Shown here piece after piece: positions 14,000 through 20,272 of a stretch of 64,000 bases of DNA. The notes under the pieces were generated by a model. The model was not told the DNA's origin. It was given only the letters and a program-made list of their open reading frames with translations, and ran no database searches. A program made the translations under genes and the position numbers. Source of the stretch: Pseudomonadota bacterium (GTDB lineage: Bacteria; Pseudomonadota; Alphaproteobacteria; Reyranellales; Reyranellaceae); NCBI GenBank assembly GCA_018240685.1, contig JAFEFG010000006.1:1-64000 (forward strand), in the 5' to 3' direction. Each line of letters starts with the position of its first letter. Position 1 is the first letter of the stretch.

Positions 14000-14560
14000 G
14001 TGACAGGCGAGCCGATCGACGAAGCCGAGATGGCGGCACTGATGCGGGCTACGCAGCAGGGCGATCCGGCTGCCTATGCTCGGTTGCTGAAGGCGGTCGC
14101 CCCGATTGTCCGGCGGATGGCTGCGCGCCGGTGGACCGGCTCCGAAGAGGCCGACGACGTCGTCCAGGACGTCCTGCTGTCGCTGCACCAGGTCCGCCAC
14201 ACCTACGATCCGGATCGTCCCTTTATCCCCTGGCTGATGGCGATCGCGCGCAACCGGCTGGCGGATGTCCAGCGTCGCCAGGCGCGCCGGGCGAAGGGGG
14301 AAGTGGCCGTCGAAATTCTTCCTGAAACCTTTTCAGGCCAGGAAACGAAGGATGTGGTGGACCGCTTGGCGTATTCCGACGCTCTCGAGCAGGCCATGGC
14401 CGAACTTCCGGCCGGGCAGAGACGTGCCGTGGAATTGCTGCGGTTCAAGGAGATGTCGCTCAAGGAGGCGTCGGCCGCCAGCGGCATGTCGATTTCGGCG
14501 CTGAAGGTCTCGATGCATCGGGCGATGAAGACGTTGCGAACCATTCTGACGAAGCAGTGA
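14000..14560 (+). CDS. ECF-type RNA polymerase sigma factor
   Basis: A 186-residue group-4 sigma factor. Region 2 spans about residues 15-90 (EEADDVVQDVLLSLHQ and FIPWLMAIARNRLAD), and region 4 is seen as AVELLRFKEMSLKEASAASGMSISALKVSMHRA with its helix-turn-helix. The start is GTG 14000; ATG 14030 is an alternative. It directly precedes an NrsF/DUF1109 anti-sigma gene, the pairing of the ECF16-like group (Caulobacter SigF-NrsF), which responds to metal and oxidative stress and uses a GTAAC(C/T)-N16-CGAA-like promoter. Two such promoters lie 4 kb downstream at 18292-18405, making those operons likely targets. No copy was found in the gap just upstream of the sigma gene. Confidence 0.9.
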   Translation: MTGEPIDEAEMAALMRATQQGDPAAYARLLKAVAPIVRRMAARRWTGSEEADDVVQDVLLSLHQVRHTYDPDRPFIPWLMAIARNRLADVQRRQARRAKGEVAVEILPETFSGQETKDVVDRLAYSDALEQAMAELPAGQRRAVELLRFKEMSLKEASAASGMSISALKVSMHRAMKTLRTILTKQ

Positions 14561-14562
14561 CC

Positions 14563-15222
14563 ATGGAGACGGAAGAACTCATCGGCAGGCTTGCCGCAGG
14601 CGCCGGGCGTCCCGTCCGACGCCTTGCGCCGCCGTCAGCCCGCCTCCTCTTCTGGTTGGCGGTCTCGTTACCGTGGATCGCCGTGGTCGTGACCGTCATG
14701 GGGGTACGGCCCGACCTGACCGCCAGGTTCGAGGACCCGCGCTGGATCGTCGAGCAGGGGGCGGCTCTGGTGACTGCAGTGGCGGCGGCGCTGGCCGCGT
14801 TCTGCGCCGGCGTGCCCGGCCGTCCGCGCTGGGAACGCGTGGTTCCGATCGTCCCCGTCGTGGTCTGGATCGGCGCCGTCGGCTTCGGTTGCCTGCAGGA
14901 TTGGATCCGGCCCGGCCCCGGCGGCGTGATGTTCGAGTCGGATTGGGCGTGCCTGCCCGGGATCGTCTTCGTCGGCGCTGCGCCCGGCATCGCCATGGCG
15001 GTCATGCTTCACAAAGGGGCGCCGCTGGCGCCTTTCGTCTCCGTCGGTCTCGGAGGCCTCGCGGCCGCGGCGCTGGCCGACTTCGGGCTGCGCCTGTTCC
15101 ACGCACAGGACGCCGGTCTGATGGTCCTCGTCTGGCAGGTCGGTTCCGTCGCTCTGCTGACGGTCTTGAGTGCGGCGATCGGACGGCACCTGGTCCGCTG
15201 GCGCCATCTGCCGCTGCACTGA
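14563..15222 (+). CDS. nrsF: NrsF-family membrane anti-sigma factor (DUF1109)
   Basis: A 219-residue inner-membrane protein with six predicted hydrophobic segments and a short cytoplasmic N-terminus (METEELIGRLAAGAG). This matches the NrsF/DUF1109 architecture that sequesters a partner ECF sigma factor at the membrane. Cysteines lie at about residues 81, 110 (GFGCLQ) and 130 (SDWACLP); in the Caulobacter protein conserved cysteines sense the stress. ATG 14563 lies 2 bases past the sigma stop; GTG 14557, overlapping it, is an alternative. Co-transcription with the sigma gene is nearly certain. Confidence 0.82.
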   Translation: METEELIGRLAAGAGRPVRRLAPPSARLLFWLAVSLPWIAVVVTVMGVRPDLTARFEDPRWIVEQGAALVTAVAAALAAFCAGVPGRPRWERVVPIVPVVVWIGAVGFGCLQDWIRPGPGGVMFESDWACLPGIVFVGAAPGIAMAVMLHKGAPLAPFVSVGLGGLAAAALADFGLRLFHAQDAGLMVLVWQVGSVALLTVLSAAIGRHLVRWRHLPLH

Positions 15223-15233
15223 GCGGGCCGCAC

Positions 15234-15464
15234 GTGCCCCGGCTCACCACCCTCTGCCGCTACTGCGTCAGCGATGGGATTCCCCTGCGTTCGTCGATGG
15301 TGGCCCTGGTCGTCGGCACCATCCTCAACCTGATCAATCAGGGCGACGCACTTCTCGGCGAGGGGCACCTCAACTTCACGAAACTGCTGCTGACGTTCGC
15401 CGTGCCCTACTGCGTGGCGACGTATGGCGCGGTCTCCTACAGGCTGCGCGCGCCCCGCCGCTGA
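15234..15464 (+). CDS. nrtS: NrtS-like small membrane protein
   Basis: A 76-residue protein with two membrane segments: MVALVVGTILNLINQGD, then LLLTFAVPYCVATYGAV. The ILNLINQGD motif and size match the NrtS family, first described as a nitrate/nitrite transporter in marine Synechococcus. It starts at GTG 15234, 11 bases after the NrsF-like gene, and so is probably the third gene of the sigma operon. Whether it moves nitrate or plays a role in the stress response is unknown. It ends 10 bases before the convergent methyltransferase gene. Confidence 0.75.
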   Translation: MPRLTTLCRYCVSDGIPLRSSMVALVVGTILNLINQGDALLGEGHLNFTKLLLTFAVPYCVATYGAVSYRLRAPRR

Positions 15465-15474
15465 GCGGGCGGCA

Positions 15475-16317
15475 TCATCGGCCGGCGGCCGCCGACGACC
15501 GATCGGGTTTCCTGGCGGTCACGATCGCATAACCCAGTTCCTTCCGGCCCACCGCGGCCCGCGCCTCGCGGGCGAACGCTTTTGCCGAGGCGAAGTCGAA
15601 GCCCGGCAGGCAGAGCTTCTTCAGGCCGACCATGACTTCGGCGATGATCAGCCGTCCGCGGATCTGCTCGACGAGATCGCGCAAGGCATCGTCGTGTTCC
15701 TCGATCTGCGGCACTACGAGGCCCGCAGCCATGAGAATGTCCGCGTAGGCCGCCGCCGGCAGCGAGTCGGCGACGCAGGCGATCCACGAGAGCAGCCCCT
15801 CGAGCGAGGCCGGCAGAGGTCCAGTCCGGGTGAGGTCGCTGAGACCGGCGCATCCGCCTGGCGCGAGGACACGGGCGAATTCGCGCGCAGTCGCGGCCTT
15901 GTCGGGAAAGGTGCAGAATGCGCATTCGCAGAGGACCGCGTCGAACGAGGCGTCGTCGAACGGAAGCCTCTCCGCATCGGCGACGTGGAACCGGACCTGG
16001 CCGGCAAGGCCTGCCCGGTCGGCGAGCCGGCTGGCGGCGTCCACGTTCTGCCGGCTGTAATCGACGCCCACCACCTCGCAGCCGAAGCGCTCGGCCAGGT
16101 GTATAGCGCTCGTCCCCCGGCCCGCGGCGACGTCCAGGACCCGCGATGCCGGCCCCAGGTCCAGCAGCTGCGCCAGCCGTTCGGTCAGCGTCCGGCCTCC
16201 GGGATGGAAGCAGTCGCCCAGCAGCAGCTTCGCGAGGTCGCTCTCGTATGTGAGCGCGCAACACTGCTTCACGCGTGCAGTATCGATCTCCGCCGGGGCC
16301 GGCGCTTCGCCAGTCAT
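15475..16317 (-). CDS. Class I SAM-dependent methyltransferase (ArsM-like)
   Basis: A 280-residue methyltransferase with motif I VLDVAAGRGTSA (about residue 60), the acidic loop VVGVDYS, and motif IV around FDAVLCECAFC. A cysteine-rich entry (KQCCALTYESD, LGDCFHPGG) and the CECAFC segment recall arsenite-methyltransferase-like proteins that use cysteines for substrate binding, but the arrangement is not enough to claim arsenite. The start codon overlaps the radical SAM stop by 4 bases (ATGA at 16314-16317). It is the last gene of the VKOR-radical SAM operon that begins at the TGTAAC promoter of 18292-18320. The substrate may be the product of, or an input to, the radical SAM reaction; this is inference. 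Confidence 0.82.
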   Translation of the reverse strand: MTGEAPAPAEIDTARVKQCCALTYESDLAKLLLGDCFHPGGRTLTERLAQLLDLGPASRVLDVAAGRGTSAIHLAERFGCEVVGVDYSRQNVDAASRLADRAGLAGQVRFHVADAERLPFDDASFDAVLCECAFCTFPDKAATAREFARVLAPGGCAGLSDLTRTGPLPASLEGLLSWIACVADSLPAAAYADILMAAGLVVPQIEEHDDALRDLVEQIRGRLIIAEVMVGLKKLCLPGFDFASAKAFAREARAAVGRKELGYAIVTARKPDRSSAAAGR

Positions 16318-17837
16318 CGCTGCGTCCCGAAATCGAACACGACGGGCCGCGGCTCATACGGCCGTCCTTCGCGCCGCGCGCGGCGGCGCTCCGGCTCCAT
16401 GGCGTCCAGCTGCGCGCGCGCCTGTTCGCGATAGCCGACCGTGTTGTAGGCGCAGAAGGGAATCTGCCTGCCCCCCGGCAGCAGGAATTCCTTGCAGCAC
16501 TTCATGAGGTTCTTCTGGTTCATGGTCCAGGGGTCCATGAAGTCCTGCAGCATGATCATGATCATATTGTTCGCCAGTTCCCCCATGGTCGACGTGGGTG
16601 CCAGGCCGCAGGCCTCGCAGGAGAGCGCGAGATCCTGGACCGACTTCGGCGAGCCGGCGACCGAGGAGGACGACCACAGCCCTTCGAGGGCCCGCTTGAT
16701 CTCGAGGTCGAAATCGGGAACGACCCGGTTCGTCAGGTAGTCGAGGTAATCCTCGACATTCAGGATCCGGGGCAGGGGAGTCACGACTTCGCCTTCGACG
16801 AAGGCATAGGTCACCGCGTTGCAGGTTGGGAAGCAGCAGGGGACGGGAACGAAGTCGGAGGCGACGAACTTGCCGCTTGTCTGTTCCTCGATGAGGCGGA
16901 CGATGTCGGGGATCGTCATGCGGTTCATCGGATCGTGTTCGATGTGCCGTCCGGCATGGAAGGCTGGCTGGAACGTGATTCCGCGCACCGCCGGGTGGCG
17001 GATGGCGAAGTCGACGATCCGTCCGACCTCGTGCTCGTTGACGCCGCGCTCGATGGCCGGAACGAGGGTGACGCTGAGGCCGATGGCGGCCAGGCGATCG
17101 AGCGCGCGCAGCTTTTCTTCCAGGATGTCGGGTTCGCCGCGGATGATCCGGTAGGTTTCCGGATCGAACCCGTCGAACTGGAAGTAGAAGGCGGGCCGGA
17201 CCTCGTTCAGCTGCTCGAGGAAGCGGTCGTCCCTGGCGATGCGGCGCCCGTTGGTGTTCAGCATCACGAACCGGATGTTCCGGCTCTTCGCGGCGCGCAC
17301 GAAGTCGATGATCTGCGGATGGACGGTCGGTTCGCCGCCGGAGAACTGCACGACTTCCGGGGCACCCTCGCTCTTCACGAAATCGTCGAGCATCTGCTCG
17401 ACCTCCTCGAGAGTGAGATTGAAGCCGGGCCGGGCATCGGCGAAGCAGAGCGGGCAATCCATGTTGCAGGTGCTGTTCACTTCGATGATGCCGAGGCAAG
17501 CGTGCTGCTCGTGCTCGGGGCAAAGGCCGCAGTCGTGCGGACAGCCGCGGTCGACAGCCGTGCCGTGGGTGTGGGGGATCGTGCCGGGTTTGTTGAAGCG
17601 GGCAAGCGCCGTATAGGCCGTCGCATCGCCATAGACGAGCGCGATGAACGGCCCACAATCCGGACAGCGCTTGCTCATGTAGACCTTGTTGTCGCGCAAC
17701 AGGATCTTCGCATCGATGACCTTCCGGCATTTCGGACAGATGCTGCGGGTCAATTCGTGGAAGATGTAGTCCGCGTCGCGCCGACGAGAGTCGGTCGGGT
17801 CAGGAGGCGTGGTGGCCTTTGCCGGAAGGGCGGTCAT
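16314..17837 (-). CDS. Tes-like radical SAM protein
   Basis: A 507-residue cysteine-rich radical SAM enzyme. The 4Fe-4S/SAM motif is C124-x3-C128-x2-C131 (STCNMDCPLCFA), followed by FSGGEPT (165-171). Before it lie Cys pairs C34-x2-C37 and C58-x2-C61 and a cluster C99, C103, C106, C114 (GCPHDCGLCPEHEQHAC), likely ligands for additional metal centres. The segments ITFQPAFH, MTIPDIVRLIEEQT and FVPVPCC, together with the Cys pattern, resemble the tetraether-lipid synthase (Tes/MJ0619) group of archaea and its bacterial relatives, which join unactivated carbons in lipid chains. The gene sits between VKOR (33 bases upstream) and a methyltransferase (4-base overlap). The family resemblance is from memory of motifs; the substrate is not known. 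Confidence 0.83.
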   Translation of the reverse strand: MTALPAKATTPPDPTDSRRRDADYIFHELTRSICPKCRKVIDAKILLRDNKVYMSKRCPDCGPFIALVYGDATAYTALARFNKPGTIPHTHGTAVDRGCPHDCGLCPEHEQHACLGIIEVNSTCNMDCPLCFADARPGFNLTLEEVEQMLDDFVKSEGAPEVVQFSGGEPTVHPQIIDFVRAAKSRNIRFVMLNTNGRRIARDDRFLEQLNEVRPAFYFQFDGFDPETYRIIRGEPDILEEKLRALDRLAAIGLSVTLVPAIERGVNEHEVGRIVDFAIRHPAVRGITFQPAFHAGRHIEHDPMNRMTIPDIVRLIEEQTSGKFVASDFVPVPCCFPTCNAVTYAFVEGEVVTPLPRILNVEDYLDYLTNRVVPDFDLEIKRALEGLWSSSSVAGSPKSVQDLALSCEACGLAPTSTMGELANNMIMIMLQDFMDPWTMNQKNLMKCCKEFLLPGGRQIPFCAYNTVGYREQARAQLDAMEPERRRARREGRPYEPRPVVFDFGTQR

Positions 17838-17870
17838 GACGGAATTCCCTGTCGTTTTCGGTGCGTGGAG

Positions 17871-18284
17871 TCAGGACCTCAGGCTCCAGACACTCCAGAG
17901 GAGGAAAGGCGAGGCCAGTGTCGTGGCGAGGCAGTAGACGCAGAAGCTGCCGAGCTTGATCATGTCGAACACGCCCAGGGCGTTCGCGACCGCGGCCAGG
18001 GCCGACAGGACCAGGAGCGGTATCCAGATCCACAGCGACTCGACCGGCCCGAGAAGGAGGAGGCCGATCAGGAAGTAGAGCGCCGTGCCGATGTAGCCGT
18101 CGGGGATGCCGAACGGGCGGGCGAAGGAAGCGTCGGCCACGGCTTGGCAGCTGCCCTCCAGGATCGGGCACCACAGGCGATTGACGGCCCGGCTCTGGTA
18201 CAGGCCGACATAGAGCATGGCGGCCGCACTTATGACCGCGAGCAGGAGGGCCACCAGGCGAGGATTGACGAACGGCATTGTCAT
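17871..18284 (-). CDS. VKOR-family thiol oxidoreductase (membrane)
   Basis: A 137-residue inner-membrane protein with about four hydrophobic helices. It has loop cysteines C39 and C46 (LWCPILEGSCQAV) and the redox motif C115-V-Y-C118, the pattern of bacterial vitamin K epoxide reductase homologues, which oxidise periplasmic thioredoxin-like proteins and pass electrons to quinone. The ATG (18284) is only 7 bases from the -10 element of the proposed ECF promoter, so the transcript may be leaderless. It is the first gene of the operon with the radical SAM enzyme and methyltransferase and is divergent from a thioredoxin/CcdA operon. The redox function fits both neighbours. Confidence 0.85.
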   Translation of the reverse strand: MTMPFVNPRLVALLLAVISAAAMLYVGLYQSRAVNRLWCPILEGSCQAVADASFARPFGIPDGYIGTALYFLIGLLLLGPVESLWIWIPLLVLSALAAVANALGVFDMIKLGSFCVYCLATTLASPFLLWSVWSLRS

Positions 18285-18291
18285 TCACCGA

Positions 18292-18320
18292 TATTCGCGA
18301 CGCGGCCGCAGAAAGTTACA
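18292..18320 (-). promoter_or_regulatory. ECF sigma promoter of the VKOR operon
   Basis: Read on the minus strand: TGTAAC (18320-18315), 17 bases, then CGAATA (18297-18292). It matches its divergent twin at 18377-18405 in both boxes and in spacing. The -10 box ends 7 bases before the VKOR ATG, so transcription should begin at or next to the start codon. Confidence 0.7.
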
Positions 18321-18376
18321 CGGACATGGCGGCCCGGCGGCCGGTCGCGCGGCGCCGCAAAGAATCTCGCTCGGCC

Positions 18377-18405
18377 TGTAACTTTTCCCCTCCGACGACC
18401 GAAAT
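18377..18405 (+). promoter_or_regulatory. ECF sigma promoter of the thioredoxin operon
   Basis: TGTAAC (18377-18382), 17 bases, then CGAAAT (18400-18405). This agrees with the GTAAC(C/T)-N16-CGAA form known for the SigF/NrsF group of ECF sigma factors. It would give a leader of about 45 bases before the thioredoxin ATG at 18456. The sigma and NrsF genes lie 4 kb away at 14000-15222. Confidence 0.7.
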
Positions 18406-18455
18406 ACCCGTCAGTGACGTCATTCCGCATCAGGCGGCCGGTCAGGGAGTATCCG

Positions 18456-18851
18456 ATGGTCGAAAGACGCTTTGTTCTGAAGGCGATGATGGTGGGCATC
18501 GGCGCATTGGCCGCTCCGCCGGTCTTCGCCTTCGAGTCCGGTGCATTCGATGCCAAGGCCTTCGCCGCCGCGCAGGCGGCCGGGAAGCCCATCCTGATCG
18601 AGGTGACGGCTCCCTGGTGTCCAACCTGCAAGGCCCAGAAGCCCATCCTGTCCGAGCTTGCGCGCAAGCCGAAATTCAAGGACCTGGTTGCCTTTCAGAT
18701 CGACTTCGACAGCCAGAAGGACCTGTTGCGCAAATTCGGCGTGTCCATGCAGAGCACGCTGATCTCCTTCAAGGGCTCCAAGGAGGTCGATCGCTCGACA
18801 GGCAACACCGATGCCGCGTCGATCGAGGCCCAGCTCGACAAGTCGCTCTAG
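18456..18851 (+). CDS. Exported thioredoxin-like protein
   Basis: A 131-residue thioredoxin-fold protein with a Tat-like signal (ERRFVLKAMMVG, cleavage near VFAFE), so it acts in the periplasm. The active site is W54-C55-P-T-C58. The position of the usual cis-proline is Ser (about residue 100, MQSTLISFKG instead of PT), which in thioredoxin-fold proteins changes substrate release and metal binding. A TCCG-rich leader and GGGAG site precede ATG 18456. It is the first gene of an operon with CcdA and a secreted unknown protein, driven by the ECF promoter at 18377. CcdA probably keeps its CPTC reduced, while VKOR, divergently encoded, could oxidise it. Confidence 0.87.
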   Translation: MVERRFVLKAMMVGIGALAAPPVFAFESGAFDAKAFAAAQAAGKPILIEVTAPWCPTCKAQKPILSELARKPKFKDLVAFQIDFDSQKDLLRKFGVSMQSTLISFKGSKEVDRSTGNTDAASIEAQLDKSL

Positions 18852-18860
18852 GGGCGGATC

Positions 18861-19580
18861 GTGCTCGCCACCGCCGGCTTGGCCTTTCTTGCCGGCATCC
18901 TGTCGACGTTGTCTCCGTGCGTGATGCCGCTGATCCCGTTGGTGTTGGGGGCCGCCGTGTCGGAACATCGGCTGGGGCCGGTAGCCTTGGCCGCGGGACT
19001 CGCCTTGTCGTTCACCGCCATCGGGTTGTTCGTGGCGACGATCGGATTTGCGATCGGCCTCGACGCCGGTGTCTTCCGGCAGGTTGCTGCGATCGTGATC
19101 GTTGGCGTGGGGCTTCTGTTGCTGTTGCCGGGCGCGCAGGCCCGCTTTGCGGTTGCCTCCGGCCCGGTCGCCGGCTGGGCGGAGCGCCGCTTCGGCGGCG
19201 GCCGGACGGCCGGTTTGCGCGGCCAGTTCCTGGTCGGACTCCTGCTTGGCGTGGTGTGGGCGCCGTGTGCCGGCCCCACGCTTGGGGCCGCGTCGGTCCT
19301 GGCCGCGAAGGGCGAGCATCTGGGCCAGGTGGCGGTCGTCATGCTCGTCTTCGGAATCGCCGCATCGCTGCCTCTCCTGCTGCTCGGACTCCTGTCGCGC
19401 GAGACGATGATGCGGCTTCGCGGTCGGCTCGTCGCCACCGGGATGGGGGCGAAGATTCTCCTGGGCGCGATTCTGGTCGCGCTCGGCCTGTCCATCCTGA
19501 CCGGCATCGACAAGCGCGTGGAAGCGTTCGCCGTCGACGTTTCGCCGCCATGGCTGACTTCCATCACGACGCGTTTCTAG
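18861..19580 (+). CDS. CcdA/DsbD-type thiol electron transporter
   Basis: A 239-residue inner-membrane protein with six hydrophobic segments and the two CcdA cysteines, C20 (STLSPCVMPLIP) and C136 (VWAPCAGPTLG). These carry electrons from cytoplasmic thioredoxin to a periplasmic thioredoxin-like protein. The start is GTG 18861, nine bases after the preceding stop. The adjacent exported thioredoxin is the obvious electron acceptor. There are no cytochrome c maturation genes nearby, so a role in this redox module is favoured over haem ligation. Confidence 0.87.
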   Translation: MLATAGLAFLAGILSTLSPCVMPLIPLVLGAAVSEHRLGPVALAAGLALSFTAIGLFVATIGFAIGLDAGVFRQVAAIVIVGVGLLLLLPGAQARFAVASGPVAGWAERRFGGGRTAGLRGQFLVGLLLGVVWAPCAGPTLGAASVLAAKGEHLGQVAVVMLVFGIAASLPLLLLGLLSRETMMRLRGRLVATGMGAKILLGAILVALGLSILTGIDKRVEAFAVDVSPPWLTSITTRF

Positions 19581-19615
19581 GCCGGGTTGCCGGCTCCAAC
19601 TGAAAAGGTGAGCAG

Positions 19616-20272
19616 ATGAGACTCTTCAGATCCTCGCGGACCGTTCTGGCGGCTGGCGGCCTCCTGCTGTGGTCGGCAGCTTCCGCGCTTGCGGCGTCGC
19701 CATTGACGCTGGAGTTCGTCACTCACGCGGCGTTCTTCTCGAACGAGACGAAGCAGCCCAAGACGCTCGATCCGCAGGTGTTCGTCAAGGACCCGGCGGC
19801 GCCGGAAGCCACCGGCCCGCAGGGCATCAAGCACGTTGCGGGCGTGCGGCCGCCCTTCATCGATCAGGATGGCGCCAATTCGCCCGTCTTCACGGCCGAG
19901 GGCAAGCCGCTCGGCTTCGACCTGAAGACGTGGCTCGGCCCCAAGGGGACCGTGACGATCTCGGAACAAGGCGGAAAGGCGATGCTGCAGGCGTCCTTCA
20001 CCGGCCTGAAGCCCGGCGGCAGCTACAGTCTCTTCGAAAACCACTTCGACCAGAAGCCGGTCGGATTCACGCCGATGGACGGTACAGGGCAGACGAACTC
20101 CTTCGTCGCCCAGTCCGACGGCACCGCGAAAGTTTCGATGGTGCTGCCCCACGTTCCCACCCACGACAACGCCGTCCTGCTCGTCTATCACAGCGACGGC
20201 CAGACACACGGGCTGGAGCGTGGTCGCATCGGGGTCGATGCGCACCACCAGCTCATCGCGCGGCCTCAATAG
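19616..20272 (+). CDS. Secreted protein of unknown function
   Basis: A 218-residue protein with a Sec signal (MRLFRSSRT, hydrophobic core, cleavage near ALAA). The mature part appears all-beta, with motifs SYSLFENHFDQKPVGFTPMD, a threonine/serine-rich middle and a histidine-containing end (LLVYHSDGQTHG, DAHHQLIARP). It contains no cysteine, so it is not itself a thiol enzyme. It follows CcdA by 35 bases with AAAAGGTGAG before ATG 19616 and belongs to the sigma-controlled operon. I do not recognise the family. The repeated histidines could bind a metal, but that is speculation. Confidence 0.8.
   Translation: MRLFRSSRTVLAAGGLLLWSAASALAASPLTLEFVTHAAFFSNETKQPKTLDPQVFVKDPAAPEATGPQGIKHVAGVRPPFIDQDGANSPVFTAEGKPLGFDLKTWLGPKGTVTISEQGGKAMLQASFTGLKPGGSYSLFENHFDQKPVGFTPMDGTGQTNSFVAQSDGTAKVSMVLPHVPTHDNAVLLVYHSDGQTHGLERGRIGVDAHHQLIARPQ

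Follow-up and report, generated by a model that had tools for sequence, protein, structure and literature searches.

What controls two operons that diverge from one intergenic gap, and what the enzymes of one of them do, are the questions raised by a 64,000-nucleotide stretch of DNA (the window) from an alphaproteobacterium of the family Reyranellaceae (contig JAFEFG010000006.1, assembly GCA_018240685.1). The leftward operon encodes a VKOR-family membrane thiol oxidoreductase, a radical S-adenosylmethionine (SAM) protein and a SAM methyltransferase, and the rightward operon a periplasmic thioredoxin, a CcdA-like electron carrier and a secreted protein. Nearby, at 14000-15222, lie genes for an extracytoplasmic function (ECF) sigma factor and an NrsF-like anti-sigma factor. 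A first-pass annotation, made from the nucleotide sequence alone, had named the sigma/NrsF genes and the contents of both operons, and gene calls and family matches bear it out; absent from it were an NrtS-family gene (15234-15464) and the other sigma/NrsF unit of the genome, on another contig. The reading preferred here, to which we give a probability of about 0.72, is that of an envelope-stress regulon in which both divergent operons are controlled by a sigma factor of a variant ECF16/SigF-like kind and by NrsF, its anti-sigma factor with six helices. The case is for a real, conserved regulon of the SigF/NrsF type, to which an uncharacterised enzyme module has been added. The genes, the promoters and their conservation, the cysteine change in NrsF, and the Tes-like fold and ligands of the radical SAM protein are sequence-based findings.

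The sigma gene is followed by, and overlaps, a DUF1109/NrsF gene, which is the order typical of ECF16/SigF-NrsF units, and the (T/C)GTAAC-N16/17-CGAA promoters that such units are expected to target are represented by two exact sites conserved across loci. Both sites lie in the gap between the operons (18285-18455), on opposite strands, and have an identical six-base -35 box, 17-base spacing and CGAA box. Within the window, TGTAAC-N17-CGAA matches only here (two matches, 0.01 expected; 0 of 100 shuffles held two), and the looser pattern GTAAC-N14-18-CGAA still finds only these two, with 0.62 expected. The first-pass annotation described the pair correctly in sequence, spacing and strand, although its ends, 18292 and 18405, fall two bases beyond the true ones, 18294 and 18403. 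The VKOR start codon (18284, or 18278 with GGTGA upstream) follows the CGAA box so closely that the transcript would have a very short leader, in agreement with mapped ECF16 promoters: transcription of Caulobacter CC2907 starts at -7 (PMC3511200), and the transcription start of Bradyrhizobium japonicum ecfF overlaps the annotated ATG (PMC3420878).

The motif recurs at related loci. A scan of genome contigs for the radical SAM protein yielded 71 loci. Among them, those of an Afipia, a Roseiarcaceae strain and a Rhizobiales metagenome-assembled genome (L066-L068) have the VKOR, radical SAM and methyltransferase genes (the cassette) adjoining genes for thioredoxin (trx), CcdA (ccdA), DUF2282, MNIO (DUF692), DUF2063, DoxX, sigma and NrsF. 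There, NGTAAC[C/T]TTT-N16-CGAA precedes VKOR, trx and DUF2282, and a divergent motif pair also precedes redoxin and DUF6789 genes; the three loci are closely related, L067 and L068 to one another as well as to L066, and do not amount to three independent lineages. Within the Acidobacteria, sigma and nrsF genes with a divergent motif head a seven-gene same-strand run that ends in a disulfide oxidoreductase, the radical SAM protein and the methyltransferase (L073); another locus (L078) carries TlpA, sigma, an NrsF-family anti-sigma factor (34.6 bits), a secreted protein, radical SAM, methyltransferase and VKOR, with three motifs, and the gene order at L082 is similar, again with sigma, NrsF, motifs and the radical SAM-methyltransferase pair. 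The hidden Markov model for NrsF was built from sequences that included L066-L068, L073 and L078, and only the L082 match to it is independent. By group, loci with sigma/NrsF hold 9, 10 and 16 motif copies (shuffled means 0.27, 0.07 and 0.13), and radical SAM loci without sigma/NrsF hold 0, 0, 1 and 0 (0.30, 0.43, 0.60 and 0.37), that is, one match in about 708 kb in total. The expectation of the first-pass annotation that the motif would be found at orthologous loci is thereby confirmed, both before the cassette and before trx-ccdA in L066-L068 and before the radical SAM-containing runs of Acidobacteria with sigma/NrsF.

Closer to home, three species of the same genus (L150, L151 and L152) have sigma-nrsF beside trx and the motif before trx; L150 and L151 also have ccdA and the secreted protein, the L152 contig ending in trx. 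The radical SAM cassette was seen in none of the three. Its radical SAM orthologue was found in no other genome of the order, where 18 others of 76 genomes matched at 39-46 % identity only, and it was absent from 385 sampled genomes of the class, this genome excepted. Because the core unit occurs without the cassette in the same genus and the orthologue is missing from the other genomes of the order, the cassette is best regarded as accessory, and comparison of the loci indicates that it joined a standing sigma-nrsF-trx-ccdA unit, bringing its own copy of the promoter.

The anti-sigma factor of the window departs from the two-conserved-cysteine pattern of ECF16 anti-sigma factors (C131/C181, C129/C179). 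In the alignment, its Cys132 is kept, the second classical cysteine (C181 of Caulobacter NrsF, C179 of OsrA) is absent, and a Cys112 is present. Among nine alphaproteobacterial NrsF proteins of the window type (type A), the first cysteine is found in eight, the second is missing from all nine and Cys112 is present in all nine; position 112 is proline in classical NrsF sequences and cysteine in type A. The window protein belongs to a variant subclass of the NrsF family. In OsrA, sigma binding depends on the first cysteine and the response to H2O2 on the second (PMC3420878). By the published six-helix topology, Cys112 and Cys132 would face or border the periplasm, and the cysteine pattern together with this topology makes a thiol-related signal plausible.

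Table 1. Genes and predicted promoters of the sigma/NrsF locus, in window coordinates
Feature	Position	Strand	Basis or remarks
ECF sigma factor, window-type (type A)	14000..14560	+	35 % identical to the classical SigF-like sigma of the same genome
NrsF/DUF1109-type anti-sigma factor, six transmembrane helices	14557..15222	+	PF06532, 86.8 bits (cut-off 26.8); alignment
Small membrane protein, NrtS family	15234..15464	+	NF038050, 37.3 bits (cut-off 25); flanking sequence
SAM methyltransferase	15475..16317	-	nearest NCBIfam model DVU_1556 family (NF045667), 138 bits, below cut-off 155
Radical SAM protein, Tes/TrsS superfamily	16314..17837	-	rubredoxin-like domain, N-terminal auxiliary cluster, radical SAM (RS) cluster, C-terminal auxiliary cluster
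VKOR-family membrane thiol oxidoreductase	17871..18284	-	PF07884, 53.1 bits (cut-off 27.5); cysteines 39, 46, 115, 118
Predicted promoter of VKOR-radical SAM-methyltransferase, TGTAAC-N17-CGAA, TGTAACTTTCTGCGGCCGCGTCGCGAA	18320-18294	-	exact pattern; conserved in L066-L068
Predicted promoter of trx-ccdA-secreted protein, TGTAAC-N17-CGAA, TGTAACTTTTCCCCTCCGACGACCGAA	18377-18403	+	exact pattern; conserved in L150-L152 and L066-L068
Periplasmic thioredoxin-like protein	18456..18851	+	PF00085; signal-like N-terminus, WCPTC active site (C55, C58)
CcdA/DsbD-like membrane electron carrier	18861..19580	+	PF13386/PF02683; C20 in first helix, C136 in later helix
Secreted protein, many conserved histidines	19616..20272	+	seen here in same-genus loci only

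The redox proteins carry the residues expected of their families. The VKOR protein combines its Pfam match with all four active-site cysteines, and the WCPTC thioredoxin and the C20/C136 pair of the CcdA protein have the features of a thioredoxin-CcdA relay, the export signal being judged by eye only. The secreted protein, which lacks a Pfam match and was modelled by AlphaFold with a predicted local distance difference test (pLDDT) score of 50, is a possible metal binder. The NrtS-family gene is probably the third gene of the sigma operon; such a gene also stands behind nrsF in L150 and L151.

For the radical SAM protein, a sequence search against solved structures gave as its best match the archaeal tetraether synthase Tes (7tol, E 3.8e-80). 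Its AlphaFold model, built from 34 sequences (pLDDT 76.9), aligns with 7tom with template-modelling scores of 0.74 (query) and 0.75 (target), E 7.5e-39 and rmsd 7.1, part of the model being uncertain. Ligands of the Tes type are present for the rubredoxin-like site, the N-terminal auxiliary cluster, the CX3CX2C RS cluster and the C-terminal auxiliary cluster (C34, C37, C58, C61, C99, C103, C106, C124, C128, C131, C447, C448 and C462). The cluster ligands are kept in all 34 sequences, with one rubredoxin-like ligand being Cys in place of His in 7 of the 34, the window protein included, where C61 corresponds to His36 of the Methanocaldococcus jannaschii enzyme (MjTes). Like Tes/GDGT-MAS (7tol, 7tom; PMC9433317), the predicted protein has the four-domain fold, with a rubredoxin-like site, two auxiliary cluster domains, an RS core and conserved metal ligands; unlike it, it is only about 30 % identical and is paired with a methyltransferase and a VKOR protein. 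Moreover, the window protein has Gln431 and Phe451 in place of Met439 and Tyr459 of MjTes, which are reported as invariant across about 1000 archaeal homologues; each of the 34 bacterial sequences has Q, K or H at position 431. As two residues invariant in archaeal Tes are missing, the protein, with its modelled Tes fold and cluster ligands, is classed as Tes-like and not as Tes. For the two enzymes, the best bacterial family models include TrsS (NF045646) and the DVU_1556 methyltransferase (NF045667); nevertheless, both proteins score below the curated cut-offs (324 against 490 bits for the radical SAM protein, 138 against 155 for the methyltransferase), and the window gene has no selenocysteine codon. 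A second radical SAM family, 39-46 % identical, is common in the genus (L048-L065); an in-frame TGA reported in these same-genus homologues (41 %), from which a selenoprotein had been considered, is an ordinary terminal stop.

As to the work of the cassette, the radical SAM and methyltransferase genes stand together in nearly all loci, and their neighbours recur. In SAR202-type Chloroflexota (L086-L100, L132 and L135), a PlsY-type glycerol-3-phosphate acyltransferase gene usually follows the pair (15 Chloroflexota loci), and CDP-alcohol phosphatidyltransferase genes lie near it in Ktedonobacteria and Streptomyces. A disulfide oxidoreductase gene lies up to 60 bp upstream in L071-L073, and of 15 actinobacterial loci most have MauE directly upstream of the pair. 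These neighbours suggest, with low to moderate confidence, that the radical SAM protein and the methyltransferase together act on lipids, in cooperation with a membrane thiol oxidoreductase. Weighing against the lipid role are the indirect nature of its support, the uncertainty of the model around residues 364-412 and the replacement of the two archaeal Tes residues; the last does not exclude lipid chemistry, since MjTes with M439A remains active. In Streptomyces and relatives (L101-L134), MauE sits directly upstream as if it were a replacement for VKOR, and genes for a Crp-type regulator, TlpA and CcdA are nearby.

Of the competing explanations, the one that fares best, with a considerable though minority chance of being right, has the pair acting on a peptide or small molecule (e.g. 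bufferin-like or another metal-binding metabolite), or in metal(loid) detoxification, instead of on lipids. Copper-binding peptides (bufferins) are produced by the classical SigF regulon by means of MNIO enzymes, and in Afipia-type clusters a bufferin operon adjoins the radical SAM cassette; the methyltransferase also scores with arsenite methyltransferases, and some radical SAM orthologues have MerR, ArsR and mercuric-reductase-like genes nearby. However, the best structural and sequence match is to a lipid enzyme, Tes, the interval from VKOR to the methyltransferase shows no apparent gene for a precursor peptide, and the recurrent neighbours in Chloroflexota are lipid-synthesis genes. It is unlikely that the radical SAM protein is a bacterial membrane-spanning-lipid synthase (Tes/Mss-like) that cross-links lipids as an envelope stress response. 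Hundreds of bacterial Tes homologues are without an assigned function, and Zeng et al. proposed them as the makers of bacterial membrane-spanning lipids (PMC8941075), which the Tes-like fold and the retained cluster ligands would suit. The Gln431/Phe451 replacements, tempered by the activity of the M439A enzyme, speak against such a role, as do the additional cysteines that are invariant in the 34 sequences of the bacterial clade (114, 334, 339 and 407) and a methyltransferase partner foreign to the Tes reaction.

Less probable again is that the promoters are real and are read by another sigma factor, or by two in cross-talk. The genome holds two NrsF genes, the second belonging to a classical SigF/NrsF unit (L040, contig C58, 7838-9777) that comprises sigma, NrsF and a divergent DUF2282-DUF692 (bufferin) operon; a TGTAAC-N17-CGAA pair of its own stands in front of sigma and of DUF2282-DUF692. 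In B. japonicum, moreover, the paralogue ecfS was also expressed more strongly once osrA was deleted (PMC3420878). What separates the two units is the base that follows GTAAC. Near type-A sigma genes of the same family of bacteria it is C/T in 21 of 21 sites, and in Afipia-type loci in 17 of 17, whereas near classical units it is G/A in 27 of 35 sites, the remaining eight being C. Both window sites carry T here, the two C58 sites G and A. Identity between the sigma factors is just 35 %, and at the same-genus type-A loci the trx promoter is right beside the sigma gene. A pyrimidine at type-A sites and mostly a purine at classical ones favours the neighbouring sigma factor, short of proof, and makes it the likelier regulator over the C58 sigma. 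With a second unit of near-identical promoter in the genome, the assignment depends on a one-base difference and on proximity. The first-pass annotation had the sigma factor directly controlling both operons; that proposal gains comparative support from the same motif at orthologous loci, is amended by the existence of the second unit and, on these comparisons, appears well supported.

Other observations, along with the chance that the C58 unit recognises the same boxes, pull against the envelope-stress regulon proposed here. The genome-wide motif search suggested by the first-pass annotation found no enrichment, with nine TGTAACN16-18CGAA sites against 17 for the reversed control; a count below its control is uninformative by itself, and it is position and conservation that carry the case. 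No GTAAC motif lies upstream of the window sigma gene (14000), unlike the autoregulated classical sigF and ecfF, and the motifs beside the sigma genes of L150-L152 likewise point away from those genes. The association of the radical SAM gene with sigma genes, anticipated in the first-pass annotation, holds in L066-L068, L073, L078 and L082 and fails in the alphaproteobacterial/acidobacterial orthologues L069-L072, where neither NrsF nor the motif occurs within 10 kb, so that the link is not obligatory. A coincidental motif pair, with both operons transcribed from other promoters, as a genome-wide count not above control might suggest, is highly improbable, being already contradicted by the location of the pair in the divergent gap (0.01 expected) and by its conservation at orthologous loci of several lineages. 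A wider regulon is not claimed, because four of the nine sites are at the two sigma/NrsF loci, at least two are inside genes and the rest have no clear gene link. A further regulon target could be an alpha/beta-hydrolase-like gene that has a single TGTAACTTTC-N16-CGAA close to its start (locus L044, contig C110, 4588, minus strand).

Part of this regulon has a precedent. The EcfF/OsrA system of B. japonicum (PMC3420878) likewise has an ECF16 sigma factor with a DUF1109 anti-sigma factor, GTAAC...CG promoters and a thioredoxin plus CcdA-like target, as bll1027-26 (a DsbD/CcdA-like membrane protein and a periplasmic thioredoxin) is among its strongest targets and is induced by H2O2. It differs in being autoregulated and in having its own methionine sulfoxide reductases, with no VKOR-radical SAM-methyltransferase arm reported, and OsrA senses H2O2 via C179, for which the window NrsF has no equivalent. 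Caulobacter crescentus SigF/NrsF (PMC3511200) shares the NrsF-family anti-sigma factor, a GTAACC-N16-CGAA promoter and a connection to envelope/metal stress, but its regulon consists of DUF2282-DUF692-DUF2063-DoxX (bufferin) operons and YedY, its NrsF has both C131 and C181, and a promoter motif precedes sigF itself. Brucella melitensis BcrS/AbcS (PMC8315932), again an ECF16 sigma factor with a DUF1109 anti-sigma factor, has mapped boxes TGTAAC and GCGAAA with the consensus (T/C)GTAAC-N17-CGAA, which the window promoters match, and differs in its target, bcrXQP (MsrPQ-like), which acts against hypochlorous acid. The first-pass annotation knew of no described regulon with the content of the window; given EcfF/OsrA, only the VKOR-radical SAM-methyltransferase half appears undescribed. 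No description of that arm was found in the open literature, the mentions of radical SAM found in a survey of MNIO enzymes being in its reference list, and the gene names DVU1555/DVU1556 did not occur in the listed papers.

For the specificity of the sigma factor, the signal and the substrate, we infer the following course of events. An oxidant or thiol-reactive metal would act on the periplasm-facing cysteines of NrsF, here Cys112/Cys132 and not the classical pair, and NrsF would then release the sigma factor, a release mechanism known for homologues (PMC3511200, PMC3420878). Sigma and RNA polymerase would transcribe both divergent operons from the TGTAAC-N17-CGAA promoters. From the rightward operon, the periplasmic thioredoxin and the CcdA electron carrier would re-reduce oxidized periplasmic thiols, and the histidine-rich secreted protein would also be produced. 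The leftward operon would supply the VKOR membrane thiol oxidoreductase, the Tes-like radical SAM enzyme and the SAM methyltransferase, and the best guess is that a membrane lipid, or a lipid-like substrate, is modified under stress, with VKOR servicing disulfides or electrons. The full proposal, that an NrsF with relocated cysteines controls stress-induced membrane remodelling by the radical SAM enzyme and methyltransferase, fed or protected by a VKOR-type oxidoreductase, is tentative and less likely than not to hold.

Stress sensing by membrane anti-sigma factors of the NrsF family is poorly understood, and the relocated cysteine pair provides a naturally occurring variant with which to study it. 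If the proposal is correct, this regulon, with a gene set common to Alphaproteobacteria and Acidobacteria, would be the first to place a bacterial enzyme of the Tes superfamily under an envelope thiol-stress sigma factor. One clade of Tes homologues would then be tied to an inducible promoter, a sensor and fixed partners, a methyltransferase and a membrane thiol oxidoreductase, which would make its function testable.

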